DNA of 64,000 nt, from positions 157,801-221,800 of the forward strand of contig NZ_SOEY01000030.1 of the NCBI RefSeq assembly GCF_004402535.1. Reading direction: 5' to 3'. This DNA comes from Cryobacterium glaciale. GTDB taxonomy: Bacteria > Actinomycetota > Actinomycetes > Actinomycetales > Microbacteriaceae. The translations under genes and the position numbers were made by a program. The notes under the pieces are model-generated. The model worked only from the letters and a program-made list of their open reading frames with translations, was not told the DNA's origin and did not search any database. Positions 54,782 through 60,525 of this stretch are shown here, piece by piece (position 1 is the first letter of the stretch; every line of letters starts with the position of its first letter).

Positions 54782-55533
54782 CCTTTCTCCTCGAGACGCT
54801 GGCCTGGCTCGTCGACCCCGCGAACTGGGTCGGCTCCGGCGGAATTCCGACGCGCCTGGCCCAACACCTGTTGTTCACGCTCGTGACCCTGGTCGTGGCC
54901 TCGGTGATCGCCGTGCCGATTGGGTTCCTGATCGGTCACACCGGCCGTGGCCGTGGGCTGGCCGTGGCCACCTCGGGTGCATTCCGGGCCATTCCCACCC
55001 TGGGCCTGCTCACCTTGGTGGCCCTCTGGGTGGGCATCGGGCTGAATGCCCCCTATGTGGCGCTGACCATACTCGCCATTCCGCCCATCCTCGCCGGTGC
55101 CTACACTGGCTTTGAGGCCATCGATCGCAAGATCGTAGATGCCGCCAGGGCCGTGGGCATGTCGGAGGCCCAGATCGTGCTCAGGGTCGAGGTGCCCCTC
55201 GGCTTGCCCCTGCTCATCGGTGGAATTCGCTCCGCAGCCCTGCAGGTGGTGGCGACGGCCACCCTCGCCGCGTATATCGCCGATTTCGGCCTCGGCCGGT
55301 ACCTGTTCGCCGGCCTGCGTACCCGCGATTACGGCGAGATGCTCGGTGGATCCATCTTGGTGATCCTGCTCGCCATCGTGCTGGAGGGTGCGTTCGCCCT
55401 CGTGCAAAAGCTGGTCGTTCCGCGCGGCGTCACCGCGGGCCTCCCCACAGATATCCGGGACGGGTCATCCCGATCCCGCCCGGTGATGGAACCCACCATC
55501 GAGGAAGGAAACAGTCATGTTCACAGCACATAG
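54778..55533 (+). CDS. opuCD: Osmoprotectant ABC transporter permease (OpuCD-like)
   Basis: 251 residues, ATG in an ATGA overlap. About six membrane helices with F-R-A-I-P-T-L-G-L-L-T-L and an EAA loop A-A-R-A-V-G-M-S-E-A-Q. L-Q-V-V-A-T-A-T-L-A-A-Y-I resembles OpuCD/YehW proteins. A C-terminal hydrophilic tail of about 35 residues overlaps the start of the binding-protein gene by 17 bases. Confidence 0.9.
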   Translation: MTFLLETLAWLVDPANWVGSGGIPTRLAQHLLFTLVTLVVASVIAVPIGFLIGHTGRGRGLAVATSGAFRAIPTLGLLTLVALWVGIGLNAPYVALTILAIPPILAGAYTGFEAIDRKIVDAARAVGMSEAQIVLRVEVPLGLPLLIGGIRSAALQVVATATLAAYIADFGLGRYLFAGLRTRDYGEMLGGSILVILLAIVLEGAFALVQKLVVPRGVTAGLPTDIRDGSSRSRPVMEPTIEEGNSHVHST

Positions 55534-56440
55534 AGGCCGGCTCACGCTTATCGGCGCCGTCGCGGTTGGGGCCGTCGTAGCCCTTGCAGGGTGTGCGTCG
55601 GGGGACCCCCTGGCGGAACCGTCGAGCAGCGCAGCCGACTCGACCATAGTGGTCGGGTCGCAGGCGTATTACTCCAACGAGATCATCGCCGAGATCTACT
55701 CCCAGGCGCTCGAAGCGGGCGGTTTCACCGTCGACCGACAGTTCCAGATCGGTCAGCGCGAGGTCTACCTGCCCGACATCGAGGCCGGCAAGATCGACGT
55801 TTTCCCCGAGTACACCGGAAGCCTGCTCCAGGCCCTCGACAAAGAGGCCGTCGGCGGCACCAGCGACGCGACCTACGAGGAGCTTCAGGCAGCCCTGCCA
55901 GACAACCTGCGCGTTCTCGATAAGGCGGATGCCTCAGACCAGAACTCCTGGACCGTCACCGACGCCTTCGCGAGCGAGTACAGCCTCACCGACATCGCCT
56001 CGCTGACCAACGTCACCGAGCCGATTACCGTCGGTGGCAACTCGGAGCTCGAGACCCGGCCGTACGGACCGACCGCTTTGACAGAGAAGTACGGAATCGA
56101 TATCGCGGGATTCGTGCCGGTCGAAGACAGCGGCGGACCGCTGACCGTCAAGGCACTCGTCGACGGCGACATCCAACTCGCCAACATCTACACGGCCGAC
56201 CCGAACATCAAGACCAACAACCTGGTCGCCCTCTCCGACCCCGACGGACTGTTCTTTGCGGACAATGTCGTGCCCGTCGTCTCCCAGAAGATCGATGACA
56301 GTGCGGCGGCGATTCTCAACCAGGTCAGCGCGGCCTTGACGGCCGACACCCTCGTCGACCTGAACGCGCAGAGCAAGAACGACCAGCTCTCCGCCGACAA
56401 GATCGCGACCGCCTGGCTCACCAAGGAAAAGCTCGTCTAG
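55517..56440 (+). CDS. opuCC: Osmoprotectant-binding lipoprotein (OpuCC-like)
   Basis: 307 residues, ATG start after GAGGAAGG. A lipoprotein signal peptide ends at L-A-G-C (Cys near 21). The mature protein has the OpuAC fold: V-G-S-Q-A-Y-Y-S-N-E-I-I-A-E-I-Y, V-Y-L-P-D-I-E-A-G-K-I-D-V-F-P-E-Y-T-G-S and late F-F-A-D-N-V-V-P-V. It captures a quaternary ammonium osmolyte outside the membrane. It ends 11 bases before a displaced copy of the M56 gene's 3' end. Confidence 0.93.
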   Translation: MFTAHRGRLTLIGAVAVGAVVALAGCASGDPLAEPSSSAADSTIVVGSQAYYSNEIIAEIYSQALEAGGFTVDRQFQIGQREVYLPDIEAGKIDVFPEYTGSLLQALDKEAVGGTSDATYEELQAALPDNLRVLDKADASDQNSWTVTDAFASEYSLTDIASLTNVTEPITVGGNSELETRPYGPTALTEKYGIDIAGFVPVEDSGGPLTVKALVDGDIQLANIYTADPNIKTNNLVALSDPDGLFFADNVVPVVSQKIDDSAAAILNQVSAALTADTLVDLNAQSKNDQLSADKIATAWLTKEKLV

Positions 56441-56451
56441 TCGACGTAACG

Positions 56452-56583
56452 CTAGGCAGCAGACAGAATGAACGCCGGCCCGGCCAGGAGCACCGCCGAC
56501 ACGGTGAGTGCTCCGGCCGTGGCCGTGTAGCGCAGTGGCGCGGTCGGGTTCACCAGCCGCGCCACGCGCGGCATCACCTGGTG
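56452..56583 (-). pseudogene. Displaced 3' fragment of the M56 peptidase gene (132-base direct repeat, copy A)
   Basis: This 132-base stretch is the same as 59124-59255 at 129 of 132 positions, with no gaps, and in the same orientation. It encodes the last 43 codons and stop of the M56 peptidase in frame but has no start or rest of the gene. Its stop lies 11 bases from the end of opuCC, which suits the original convergent arrangement before a segment was inserted or duplicated. Identity ends abruptly at 56583. Confidence 0.92.
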
Positions 56584-56798
56584 GTGAGGCCCATTTGATG
56601 ATCGGGACCAAGCCACCTCACGATACAAGATTTAGGTCGTCGAATAATGCAGGAACAGCGCGTGCAATGCGGGAAACCTGCATCTGCGAGGTGCTCATCC
56701 GGCCGGTAGGTTGATTCAAGACAAGCCCTATTCTTTCCTGATCAGGTTGGCATTCTCGGTCTATCGCGAAAATCGCGTGTCGATCGGTGGATTCAGGA

Positions 56799-58751
56799 TC
56801 AGAACACTGGCTCATCAGTGGGTGACCCGGATCGACGCACACTGACGCCCCTATCAGAATGTATCTCTGAGTAGTAGCGCCTGGCGGCGAGATTCGCTGA
56901 CACCCTGGAGAATACACTCGCGAGACGACCTGCTCCGATGAGGAGCAGCACAGCGGTTGCGGAGTTGAGAAAGACCAGCGCGTCAGACTGGCTGGACCAA
57001 GAGGCCTCGTCTGAATACACACCTATCGCGATTAGGCACGCAAGCGTCAGGCAGAAAATGGAAGCGACAAGGCTGCCTGCCCATTTTCGTGTGTCGGGGT
57101 GCCTGCTGAGAAGAGATTGGTTTCTCATTCGCCCTCGCAGCAGGCGGTTTGCCAGCGTGAGAGCGAGGACGAGCCCAAGTCCAATCGTCAGCCAGAAGAA
57201 AGATGGCGACAACCAGAAGAAAAAAACCGCCGGCGAGCCCCAGATCAGAATTAGCATTAGGTACAGCCTGCCGGTTTGTTGCCATCTTCTGGACAGCGTC
57301 ACCGCGCTGGTCGCGACAACGTACTGTTCCGGATATGTGGCAAAACGAGGACTGTCCAATACCGGAAGTAGATCTTCCATAGCTGGCACGCTGAGCGCGC
57401 GGCTGTCGGGATAGAGGAGATCAAGTTGCGCGCTCGCTTGCTCGGCCGCGACGAGGACGGCAAGGCGTTGGCTGAGAATGCTGGTCTTGAACTTCGCCGT
57501 TGTTATTCCTAGAGGCGATGACAACCGGAGGACGGGATCGTGTGGATCATGGCCAACCCATCTCGGGACTGCAGGTCCAACCGAAGTCGCGGCCAGAATG
57601 GATGGCAATCCGGACTCGATCGCCTCAGGTAGCAACCGAATGGTGATTGCAACTACGCAGACGCAGGCTATGAGGCCGACGAGTACGCCGAAAAAGGAGA
57701 CCACCAGAATTGCGGACTGCAAAGGCATGTATTGGGGAGGGTTAGCAGCCTCTTCAACGACCACGTCTGCCCACCAGAAGAGCAAGGAGACTGCGATGAC
57801 GGATACGCCACCGACCCCAACTATCCATCTGAGTGCCGCCCAAGTCAGCAGCGCGCCGGTTGCCCCCATCCGTCGCGCGCTTCCTTGGTCAAATCTTGAG
57901 AAGCGCGGAGACGTTTGCCGGTAACTCTTAGCCGGGGTCGAAATCGGCGGGGGTGGCGGGGGCCACTGGATAGTGCCGTCAATGTAGGAATGATTATCTA
58001 AGGTCTTGAGCGCTGCTCCAGGACTGAATTCAGTGCGCTCTACGACGAAACCAAGGGTTGCTCGATCGGGCACCGAGGCAAGGCCAAAGTACGCCCTGAA
58101 CGACGTGTCTTGATACACGAACGACGGGTAGTTAGCCCACGTTCCACCGTCGACCAGGCGATGGATGGCCATGTCATGGCCGTCACCGACCAGAATTCTG
58201 CGGGTCGGAAGCACTACGGGGATGGCAGATGATGCGACGACCGCTTCAGCAATGAGGAGGTCCGGTGTGATCGAAGCATTGAAAACGATGGGCTCGCGCA
58301 GAGCTAAGTCCATGGCAACAACATTGAGCTCGATTGAGGATCTTATGGCCAGGGCGGCGAAAGTTAGAGGTTCACTTTCGTCCATGCCCAGTTTTGCGCG
58401 CATGGCTCCATCTAGCCAATCACGCAGTTTTTCCGTTTTGAAGAGTCCGCGATCGACGTTTCCCATCCAAGTGAGAAAGTTTTTCTTCAAACTTGAGAGT
58501 CCGTTCGGCACCAGTATCGTAATTTCCATGGGGTCGTGCCCCGATGCGATGAGAGCGGCGGTTATCGCTCCGGCCGACGATCCAGCCACCGAGTCAAACC
58601 ACACTCCCCGCGCACGAAGCTCGTGCAGGGCACCGCAATAGACGATTCCTTTCGCCCCTCCGCCCTTGAAAATTCCGCTCACCAAACGATCGAGTGGCGG
58701 GTAAGTGAAGGGCTTTAAGTCGGGAGCTAGGAGCGTCGTATGGGCAACCAT
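56799..58751 (-). CDS. Patatin-like phospholipase with C-terminal membrane domain
   Basis: 650 residues. The patatin domain is complete: F-K-G-G-G-A-K-G at 28-35 (oxyanion hole), G-S-S-A-G at 57-61 with nucleophile Ser59, and D-G-G at 201-203 with catalytic Asp201. A stretch of six prolines (264-269) joins it to a membrane part with helices at about 303-330, 344-373, 496-535, 556-579 and 590-613. Such enzymes cleave membrane lipids; some patatins are effectors in phage defence (CapV in CBASS), but no cyclase or other partner is here. Base composition and codon use differ from neighbours. Start ATG 58751 has no clear ribosome site. Confidence 0.85.
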   Translation of the reverse strand: MVAHTTLLAPDLKPFTYPPLDRLVSGIFKGGGAKGIVYCGALHELRARGVWFDSVAGSSAGAITAALIASGHDPMEITILVPNGLSSLKKNFLTWMGNVDRGLFKTEKLRDWLDGAMRAKLGMDESEPLTFAALAIRSSIELNVVAMDLALREPIVFNASITPDLLIAEAVVASSAIPVVLPTRRILVGDGHDMAIHRLVDGGTWANYPSFVYQDTSFRAYFGLASVPDRATLGFVVERTEFSPGAALKTLDNHSYIDGTIQWPPPPPPISTPAKSYRQTSPRFSRFDQGSARRMGATGALLTWAALRWIVGVGGVSVIAVSLLFWWADVVVEEAANPPQYMPLQSAILVVSFFGVLVGLIACVCVVAITIRLLPEAIESGLPSILAATSVGPAVPRWVGHDPHDPVLRLSSPLGITTAKFKTSILSQRLAVLVAAEQASAQLDLLYPDSRALSVPAMEDLLPVLDSPRFATYPEQYVVATSAVTLSRRWQQTGRLYLMLILIWGSPAVFFFWLSPSFFWLTIGLGLVLALTLANRLLRGRMRNQSLLSRHPDTRKWAGSLVASIFCLTLACLIAIGVYSDEASWSSQSDALVFLNSATAVLLLIGAGRLASVFSRVSANLAARRYYSEIHSDRGVSVRRSGSPTDEPVF

Positions 58752-59123
58752 GGTGCATGCTACTGCGGCGTTCCTGATTTGTCACCAAGACCCTACGCGT
58801 CAGGGTTGGGTGAGGCCAGCAACTAAGAGCAAGTCCGCCGCATGGCGTAGGGCGAGAACCAGGAAACCACCACCATGTCCAGCCCGTCGTTGATCGCCTG
58901 GCGCGACGATAGTCATATGACTTGTCCCGGGTCCCGATCCGGCGGTCCGAACTCGGGCTGAACACCCCCGCCGACGTGGCGCCGCGGCACGACGGCTCAC
59001 GACCCAGCTGCAGCATCCAACTCCTCCGCGTACCGACTCGGGACGGACCCGACCACATGTCGCAACGAGTTCATGCCGATTCTGCATGTCCGGCAGTTGT
59101 CGTGCCCCTCGACTCCGACCGGT
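58752..59123. other. 372-base gap between the patatin gene and the M56 gene end
   Basis: No convincing gene. From about 58800 the sequence becomes GC-rich and several frames stay open for 60-95 codons on either strand, but none has a recognisable motif or ribosome site. It probably holds the patatin gene's promoter and the terminator region of the M56 gene. Confidence 0.45.
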
Positions 59124-59255
59124 CTAGGCAGCAAACAGAATGAACGCCGGCCCGGCCAGGAGAACCGCCGACACGGTGAGTGCTCCGGCCGTGGCCGTGT
59201 AACGCAGTGGCGCGGTCGGGTTCACCAGCCGCGCCACGCGCGGCATCACCTGGTG
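59124..59255 (-). repeat. 132-base direct repeat, copy B (3' end of the intact M56 gene)
   Basis: The counterpart of 56452-56583, differing at three bases. Identity ends at 59255, about 40 bases short of the palindrome. It encodes residues 287-329 of the M56 protein, including its last membrane helix. Confidence 0.92.
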
Positions 59256-60113
59256 AGCCGGATGCTCGGGCGCTGCGGCCGGTCCCGGTTCCACCAGTGA
59301 AGCGGATGCGGCGGCGCGCGCCGCAGCATCCGCTTCACTGCTGGTGGCTGCGGCGAAACCGGCCAGTGCGAAGCCCACGAGCGCGATCGCGCGGGCCAGG
59401 GTGTGATCATCGACGACGCGGCGGGCGTGATCGTCCGCGAGCATTTCGACCAGTAGGGCGACGGCGTTCTCGGCGCGATTGGCGATGGGGAACCACGGCA
59501 GAGCGCTGTGCCAGCTCTTGAAGGCAAGCAACACCAGATGGTGCCGCTGCACGAGGTGGGCTTGTTCGTGGGCGATGACCGCGCGCATCTGGTCCGCGTC
59601 GAGCAGGCGCAGCAGACCGTTGGAGAGCACGGTCGCTGAATGCCCAGCTCCGGGCAGGCAGTATGCGACCGGTGCCGGATGGTCGATGACGCGCATGCCC
59701 GGCTGGCCGTGCAGCGGATCGCTCAAAAGCGCGATGAGGGCGTGGTGATGGCGGCGCTGGCGCTCAGCCCGCACGAAGGTCGCCAGCAGATTGAGCAGCA
59801 GGTGCGTGCCGAGCAGGATGGCCGCGCCGAGTGCGAGCACGTGGATGACGCTCGTGCCCATCGGAAGGGTTCCGGCGCGCAGATCGCCTCCCAGGGCGGA
59901 AACGCTCTCGCCGAGAGCGTCTCCGAAGGGAACGAGGCCGTAAAGCAGGAGCGAACCGATCATGGACAGGCCACCCGACAGCGCGATGGCCTGCCAGAGC
60001 ACGAGCGCCACACCGGGGGAGCGGGCCGGCCAGTCGGCGCGGGCCAGTGCTAACGGGACCGGCCCGGCCAACAGCACGGCGATGACGCCGAGCAGGGCGG
60101 CAGCGGTGATCAC
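59124..60113 (-). CDS. M56-family (BlaR1/MecR1-like) membrane metallopeptidase
   Basis: 329 residues. Several membrane helices and a cytosolic zinc-protease domain with H-E-Q-A-H (His182, Glu183, His186) and a downstream E-M-L-A-D (Glu223 as third ligand). The penicillin-binding sensor domain of BlaR1 (about 250 residues) is absent, so the signal is unknown. It lies 25 bases after the blaI-type gene and likely inactivates that repressor by cleavage, as in Bla/Mec systems. The last 132 bases are duplicated at 56452-56583. A large palindrome (59296-59339) lies in its C-terminal linker. GTG start, no clear ribosome site. Confidence 0.88.
   Translation of the reverse strand: MITAAALLGVIAVLLAGPVPLALARADWPARSPGVALVLWQAIALSGGLSMIGSLLLYGLVPFGDALGESVSALGGDLRAGTLPMGTSVIHVLALGAAILLGTHLLLNLLATFVRAERQRRHHHALIALLSDPLHGQPGMRVIDHPAPVAYCLPGAGHSATVLSNGLLRLLDADQMRAVIAHEQAHLVQRHHLVLLAFKSWHSALPWFPIANRAENAVALLVEMLADDHARRVVDDHTLARAIALVGFALAGFAAATSSEADAAARAAASASLVEPGPAAAPEHPAHQVMPRVARLVNPTAPLRYTATAGALTVSAVLLAGPAFILFAA
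59296..59339. repeat. 44-base near-perfect palindrome inside the M56 gene
   Basis: AGTGAAGCGGATGC (59296-59309) pairs exactly with GCATCCGCTTCACT (59326-59339). Between them GCGGCGCGCGCCGC (59311-59324) is itself a perfect palindrome, so the only mismatch is one G/A pair (59310, 59325). With a 3-base bulge the pairing continues outward through CCACC/GGTGG. It codes for a Ser/Ala/Asp-rich linker between the protease domain and the last helix. Confidence 0.9.
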
Positions 60114-60138: not shown

Positions 60139-60525
60139 CTAGTCGTTGTCGGCGGTCGCCGTGCCGAGCAACTGGCGCAGGGTTTCCGCTTCCTGGGGGG
60201 TGACGCCGCCGATGAAGCGCACGAGTGCCGCCTGGCGATCGGGTACCTGGCCGAGCACCTCGTGCATCAGACCGGCCGTGTGGGAGGCCCGGGTCATGAC
60301 GGCGGTATAGGCGTGCGGACGCACGGTGCGATCGCGGGTCACGAAGCCCTTGGCTTCCAGTCGGGACAGCACGGTCAGAATGGTGGTCGTCGCCAGTGGC
60401 TTCGCTGGCCTCTCCGAGATCTGGGGGTTGATCAGGGAGTCTTTGAGCTCGTTGGCCGTCAACGAGGTCGGGGAGTCCCACAGGATATCCATCATCAGCC
60501 TCTCGAGCACACCCAAACTTCCCAT
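60139..60525 (-). CDS. BlaI/MecI/CopY-family transcriptional repressor
   Basis: 128 residues, ATG start. A winged helix N-terminal domain (L-E-R-L-M-M-D-I-L-W, then T-T-T-I-L-T-V-L-S-R-L-E-A-K-G-F-V) and a short C-terminal dimerisation part match the family. BlaI-type repressors bind dyads with TAC/GTA cores and are cleaved by their partner M56 peptidase. Here the gene is followed by the M56 gene and diverges from cydA; two matching dyads lie in the 108-base gap. Regulation of its own operon and of cyd is the inference. Confidence 0.93.
   Translation of the reverse strand: MGSLGVLERLMMDILWDSPTSLTANELKDSLINPQISERPAKPLATTTILTVLSRLEAKGFVTRDRTVRPHAYTAVMTRASHTAGLMHEVLGQVPDRQAALVRFIGGVTPQEAETLRQLLGTATADND

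Follow-up and report, generated by a model that had tools for sequence, protein, structure and literature searches.

A protease gene end present twice around a patatin-like gene in Cryobacterium glaciale is consistent with insertion and gene restoration

How does a gene come to have two ends? The question is raised by a membrane protease gene in a 64,000-nucleotide stretch of Cryobacterium glaciale DNA (contig NZ_SOEY01000030.1, positions 157,801 to 221,800; hereafter the window). The last 132 bases of this gene occur twice, on either side of a patatin-like phospholipase gene. Gene-end duplications are commonly read as the mark of an integrase. A first-pass annotation of the window proposed that an element had entered at the 3' end of the protease gene and restored it, in the manner of integrative elements at tRNA genes. 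Our comparison with related loci supports insertion with gene restoration at an ancestral opuCC-protease junction. As to the route, we tentatively favor a foreign fragment, littered with insertion sequences (IS) and carrying the patatin-like gene, that inserted itself between the protease gene and opuCC by means of homology on just one of its sides. Most likely the event was a one-off, produced by ordinary DNA repair and recombination, and does not represent a novel type of mobile element; we regard the locus as one more instance of an event of a known kind. The features around which the argument turns are the following, in window coordinates:

55517..56440, plus strand: opuCC-like substrate-binding protein gene (PF04069, E 8e-47), the native neighbor
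56452..56583, minus strand: outer copy, read as the native protease 3' end (43 codons and the stop codon), now a dead fragment with one phenylalanine-to-serine (F-to-S) change
56799..58751, minus strand: patatin-like phospholipase gene, 650 amino acids (PF01734, E 2.5e-27)
59124..59255, minus strand: inner copy, the 3' end of the intact protease gene, with two probably derived silent changes
59124..60113, minus strand: intact membrane protease gene, 329 amino acids (Pfam Peptidase_M48, PF01435, E 4e-12)

The two copies of the protease end lie on the same strand, 2672 bp apart, and are identical at 129 of 132 positions, exactly where and as the first-pass annotation had described them. The mismatches fall at repeat positions 11, 40, and 79, and the longest exact run that the copies have in common is 53 nt. 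Because this run is only 53 nt long, repeat collapse or mis-assembly at the locus is unlikely. Read on the plus strand, the inner copy opens with CTA, the protease stop codon, and past the stop codon the next 60 bases beside the inner and outer copies agree at 7% in a gapped alignment, the chance level. We scanned the window and 79 related loci (1,281,821 bases) for direct repeats of 60–500 nt with at least 92% identity and a spacing of 0.8–15 kb. The pair was the only hit in the window, and the 79 related loci held no direct repeat that met these thresholds. Nor did any of the 79 show a duplication of the protease gene's own tail, a check limited to the flanks available around them. When the 132-base sequence was searched against its own genome it was found only at these two places, and a 25-mer from it had no exact match among viral contigs.

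Which copy is the native end? We searched 56 other Cryobacterium genomes, taken from collections that hold one genome per species and hence no conspecifics. (G numbers denote genomes, G000 being that of the window; L numbers denote loci in relatives; C35 is the contig of G000 with this locus.) A protease orthologue was present in 54 of the 56, and G028 and G071, which gave no match, were excluded. The insert was absent from all 54 congeneric loci read. In 51 of them opuCC lies close to a single intact protease end, the arrangement that the first-pass annotation had suggested looking for, and the two genes converge across a gap of −4 to 599 bp. The gap is mostly 10–12 bp in the closest relatives and ranges from −4 to 29 bp where protease identity exceeds 80%. 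At our locus the gap between the outer copy and opuCC is 11 bp, as in C. luteum (L005), and the first seven gap bases are common to both. Because gap length and gap bases match C. luteum amid the close junctions of the relatives, we take the outer copy to be the native end of the protease gene. The annotation had likewise placed the end of the intact gene at the inner copy and the original end beside opuCC, and this placement is now backed by the junctions of the relatives and by the polarity of the copy differences. Two patterns that it had named as telling against its reading, the duplication without an insert and the patatin gene at the site in all relatives, were both absent from the 54 loci.

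The polarity of the copy differences was judged against 14 close relatives. At position 11 all 14 carry the inner letter, which places the change (F to S) in the outer copy. At positions 40 and 79 the outer letter is found in 13 of the 14; the exception, L004, has a third letter (T) at position 40 and the inner letter (A) at position 79. The inner copy most likely carries two derived silent changes. Such changes could mean that the end came in from another strain or that it drifted after the event, two histories that three sites cannot separate. From the same three differences the event had been called not very recent. We do not retain this dating: the two silent changes may have arrived with the inner copy, and the third lies in the dead outer one.

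The 2540 bp between the copies consist of a truncated IS1380-family end, the orphan patatin-like gene, an internally deleted IS3-family remnant, and a short further stretch. The patatin gene is thus where it had been noticed before, but it shares the insert with two IS remnants:

56584..56803, minus strand: truncated IS1380-family end, 71–80% identical over longer matches to congener elements
58791..58978, plus strand: IS3-family remnant with one exact terminus at 58791, a ~1.1-kb internal deletion, and a piece of the transposase C-terminus
58979..59123, no strand assigned: unassigned 145-bp stretch that fills the space from the IS3 remnant to the protease stop codon

The family labels IS1380 and IS3 were taken from plasmid annotations. 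IS1380-family elements in the congener G072 are multicopy and ~1664 bp long. In the insert, the IS1380 terminus lies at ~56803, and the stop codon of the patatin gene (56799–56801) falls inside its terminal repeat. The left edge of the insert lies in the interior of the element, at about codon 30 of the transposase gene, and abuts the outer copy. The IS3 remnant shares as much as 90% identity, across 165 nt, with multicopy congener elements, and its second piece (58946–58978) matches 1.1 kb further into a 1560-bp element. About 10 bases at 58946–58955 have a counterpart on either side of the missing segment, which probably points to deletion between short repeats. We rejected a composite or IS-borne transposon: both preserved IS termini (56803 and 58791) face the patatin gene, no outward-facing IS ends were found in the insert, and the duplication is 132 bp. 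The 145-bp stretch gave just 19–47 nt matches, treated as chance, in 22 of 397 other genomes of the family, and its score against the IS stayed within the shuffle range. An 81% match to it in G077 was dropped, as it fell inside a response-regulator-like open reading frame (ORF). The insert had no match among phages, and among plasmids only its IS parts matched.

Of the three insert ORFs scanned, only the patatin ORF matched Pfam. Its 650-residue product contains GSSAG and DGG, which we take to be patatin-type motifs, and its long C-terminal half, which lacks a Pfam match, has stretches that look hydrophobic by eye. The GC content of the gene is 57.2%, against 65.8% for the window, and its GC content at third codon positions is 61.9%, against 81–85% in the protease, opuCC, and cydA genes. 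The segment is thus of lower GC, as first described, and its composition supports a foreign origin.

The edges of the insert bear on how it arrived. On the right, the edge coincides with the protease stop codon, and the match of the inner copy to the native end extends through this codon. We compared loci of two opu types, L004, L009, L010, and L011 on one side and L005, L007, L008, and the outer copy on the other. Between types, the last 129 bp of the protease gene are 78–87% identical and the next 60 bp 58–67%; within a type, the 60 bp past the stop codon are 77–97% identical. Because congeners of different opu types also drop in identity just past the stop codon, an edge at this point would be expected of a donor with this protease gene beside a different neighbor. 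On the left, the edge inside the IS1380 transposase gene is as for a random break or a deletion, and the silent changes at two sites of the inner copy are as from another strain.

We propose the following route. A near-identical strain would have had foreign DNA, not opuCC, after its protease gene. A fragment of it would have entered the cell, broken off 132 bp inside the protease gene on one side and within the IS1380 transposase gene on the other. The ends of the fragment would then have been joined to form a circle; the host has a Ku gene (PF02735, 173.6 bits, G000:C35:33574-34110), from which we judge that it is probably capable of end joining. A single homologous crossover within the 132 bp would have inserted the circle. 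In the predicted product, the donor copy forms the end of the intact protease gene and is followed by the foreign DNA and, next to opuCC, by the 132-bp remnant of the native end. We include here a linear variant, with one homologous and one illegitimate crossover, which could yield an identical product. A circle and a single crossover would explain both edges, the native outer copy, and the absence of recombination genes, and we give the reading as a whole slightly less than an even chance.

A precedent is found in Escherichia coli, in a study aimed at finding homology-facilitated illegitimate recombination. PCR gave a sign of partial duplication of the homologous locus in 56 of 60 clones, and the duplications measured 109–950 bp in 14 sequenced clones (PMC3240628). 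Its authors infer a shortened circular molecule and a single crossover, with degradation and recircularization as the likelier route (PMC3240628).

Several observations weigh against the circle and its linear variant. In the E. coli study the linear illegitimate type accounts for 4 of 60 clones and generally deletes target DNA (PMC3240628), which speaks against the variant. The donor arrangement, a protease gene followed by 58979–59123 or by the patatin gene, was found in none of the loci read, at one genome per species. The left joint is without clean microhomology, GTGAG standing on both sides with an offset of 3 nt. L004 shares the inner letter at position 79. In comparisons with the more distant L006, identity is 69–74% at the protease gene end and 42–48% beyond the stop codon, and the 58–67% between opu types beyond the stop codon lies partly below the highest value of a shuffled control (mean 26%, maximum 65%, one pair only). 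Finally, an att duplication of the integrase type, that is, one of attachment sites, would produce the same right edge.

This last point is the strength of the main rival, which we find doubtful: a decayed site-specific integrative element, a remnant of a phage, an integrative and conjugative element (ICE), or an integrative and mobilizable element (IME), comparable to a cis-mobilizable element (CIME). An attP bearing a protease 3' end would have been recombined by an integrase with the end in the chromosome, so that the gene was restored, and later IS insertions and deletions would have removed the integrase. The layout is that of e14 in icd, where the duplication covers 163 bp of the 3' end and the new end of the gene comes from the prophage (PMC6379469). 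Elements at protein-gene 3' ends are known, and CIMEs are decayed ICEs or IMEs that keep only their att sites, the integration genes being lost by definition (PMC5704250). At our locus too, direct repeats flank the insert, one of them completes the 3' end of the target gene, and the duplication ends exactly at the protease stop codon. Against a decayed element stands the absence from contig C35 of any match to the tyrosine (PF00589) or serine (PF07508) recombinase profiles, in line with the earlier remark that no integrase was seen; the genome has 12 PF00589 matches, all on other contigs, and none to PF07508, and other recombinase families, including other resolvase types, were not searched. 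Among the three insert ORFs scanned the single Pfam match is in the patatin ORF, and the insert lacks phage matches and has plasmid matches confined to its IS parts. The left edge inside an IS gene would require an extra deletion reaching the repeat edge. Use of the same site was not seen in relatives, with duplicated ends at 0 of the 79 loci within the flanks available and no insert at the 54 congeneric ones, three of which hold another block that lacks direct repeats, and the viral contigs lacked the repeat 25-mer. Of the first-pass proposal we therefore keep insertion at a gene 3' end with restoration of the gene, and leave its integrase-type element, which the missing recombinase profiles, the 0 of 79 duplications, and the left edge do not support.

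A staggered break could also have left two copies, if nicks 132 nt apart were filled in and a foreign fragment was ligated between them by Ku-dependent joining. The Ku gene and the left edge inside an IS gene agree with such a capture, as do the strong single-stranded folding of the repeat and a 54-bp palindrome 36 bp away, both described below. The duplication edge exactly on the stop codon would, however, be a coincidence, and both silent changes in the inner copy must then postdate the event; we consider this explanation unlikely. In its length, the repeat might also suggest an attC site of an integron cassette. Alternatively, a larger chromosomal region may have been duplicated in tandem and then deleted except for the gene end and the patatin stretch, which would probably result in the same order and orientation. 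In the genome, though, the patatin gene has a single match and the 132-bp sequence two, so that all other copies must have been lost, and we hold this course to be very improbable.

The DNA at the site has structural features of its own. Folded as single-stranded DNA, the outer copy reached z −5.1 and −6.1 in two runs and the inner copy −4.0, against 1 of 160 sampled window stretches at z −4 or below. The mean for 29 relatives was −1.5, with eight at −3 or below. L004–L011, the eight closest relatives printed, had z values of −1.8 to −3.6, and the same main hairpin of the protease 3' end (GGCCAGGAGCACCG...CGGTGAGTGCTCCGGCC) was recognized by eye in seven of them. This hairpin inside the coding end may be a bidirectional terminator common to the convergent genes, in which case the duplication leaves one copy per gene. 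Close to the repeat lies the strongest palindrome of the window:

59291..59344, no strand assigned: loopless 54-bp palindrome within the protease gene, at a distance of 36 bp from the edge of the repeat

The palindrome is found in 9 of 29 relatives (L004–L012; protease identity at least 77%) and is absent from the other 20; among five further close relatives it is present in three, weaker in one, and absent in one. It is an inverted pair of the motif AGCGGATGC, which is over-represented in this group, and it could have favored a break. The octamer GCGGATGC, which makes up the inverted pair of the palindrome, occurs 40 times in the window (for example at 59302–59309 and 59326–59333), with 7.8 expected, and 121 times in 12 close Cryobacterium loci, with 24.8 expected. 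Its frequency is 2.4–3.1 times the expected one in four other Microbacteriaceae locus groups and 0.48 times in Arthrobacter/Kocuria loci, and an A directly precedes it in 74% of 161 cases. It is possibly an uptake motif, a repetitive extragenic palindromic (REP) motif, or a HIP1-like motif; no report of it was among the literature matches listed. One could go further and suppose that breaks recur at this folding, palindrome-flanked 132-bp end, with repeated capture by Ku-joined circles and short homology leaving integrase-free islands at gene ends, but we give this idea very little credence.

Upstream of the protease gene lies a probable regulator:

60139..60525, minus strand: BlaI/MecI-type repressor gene (PF03965, E 2e-17)

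A BlaI-type repressor beside an M56 protease is the pattern of BlaR1/M56 pairs. The protease had been called M56 in the first-pass annotation; its Pfam label is Peptidase_M48, and it is the adjoining repressor that speaks for the earlier name. Among named genomes, its best matches are in C. ruanii and C. luteum, at 90–91%. Other gene sets at the junction, which had also been suggested as something to look for, do exist: in the remaining 3 of the 54 congeneric loci (L159–L161; G079, G070, and G073), an unrelated block of ~6.7 kb, with no direct repeats, separates the protease gene from opuCC. In the L160 block, the larger ORFs resemble, by eye, genes for a secreted protein, for glycosyltransferase-like proteins, and for a small membrane protein. 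In L004, L009, L010, and L011, the adjacent opuCC is 46–47% identical to that of the window and the protease 83–91%; these loci seem to have acquired another opu operon in an exchange that reached roughly to the protease stop codon, and none of the four contains the insert. In L162 (2295–2593; G001, C. tepidiphilum), a 153-bp tandem repeat, 78% identical and unrelated to the protease end, lies inside the 599-bp protease-opuCC gap.

The relatives of the patatin-like protein are almost all confined to its catalytic domain. It had a match in 19 of 299 genomes of the family (its own included; best other E 3.4e-8) and in 77 of 396 genomes of the phylum (again its own included), the best phylum match other than its own being 38% identical over residues 27–214 (E 3.3e-21). 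A weak match in G722 (E 8.4e-4, with a stop inside) is located outside the catalytic domain. Matches in plasmids (six records) and phages (two records) all cover the catalytic domain. A patatin pattern occurred in 27 stretches of genome contigs and in one of viral contigs, none of them confirmed. Seven distinct sequences of solved structures match the N-terminal patatin region; we claim no function from them.

If the end-joined circle with one crossover is the true history, the locus is a natural case in which end joining and a single crossover left an integrase-like mark, which bears on how islands are called. If a decayed element was at work instead, the protease gene joins the list of integration sites. 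A literature search for integrative elements or site-specific integration at an M56 protease gene gave no matching report, and among the matches listed for Cryobacterium islands none named Cryobacterium.

Known systems resemble the locus in part. The protein is like the patatin-like phospholipases of cyclic-oligonucleotide-based antiphage signaling systems (CBASS) and others in its patatin domain with GSSAG and DGG and in weak matches to PADLOC phospholipase effectors (best 6.6e-13). Unlike a CBASS effector, it has a long C-terminal half without a Pfam match and no partner gene in the insert; no CD-NTase partner lies beside it, a negative that covers only the adjacent genes, the protease gene and opuCC. 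The e14 prophage in icd (PMC6379469) has the same layout, a duplicated protein-gene 3' end (163 bp) with the incoming DNA supplying the new end and the old end outside. It is, however, a prophage of 15,204 bp, whereas the insert is 2.5 kb with no integrase found and no phage gene recognized. With a CIME (PMC5704250), the locus shares two related gene-end repeats that enclose foreign DNA devoid of recombination genes; it differs in that no full element was seen at the site, no att core was shown, and the left edge is inside an IS gene. The integrants of Amarir-Bouhram 2011 (PMC3240628) arose from a laboratory plasmid in E. coli under selection, whereas ours is a natural actinobacterial locus with neither circle nor donor seen; what the two have in common is foreign DNA flanked by a partly duplicated homologous locus, with one edge at the point where homology is lost.

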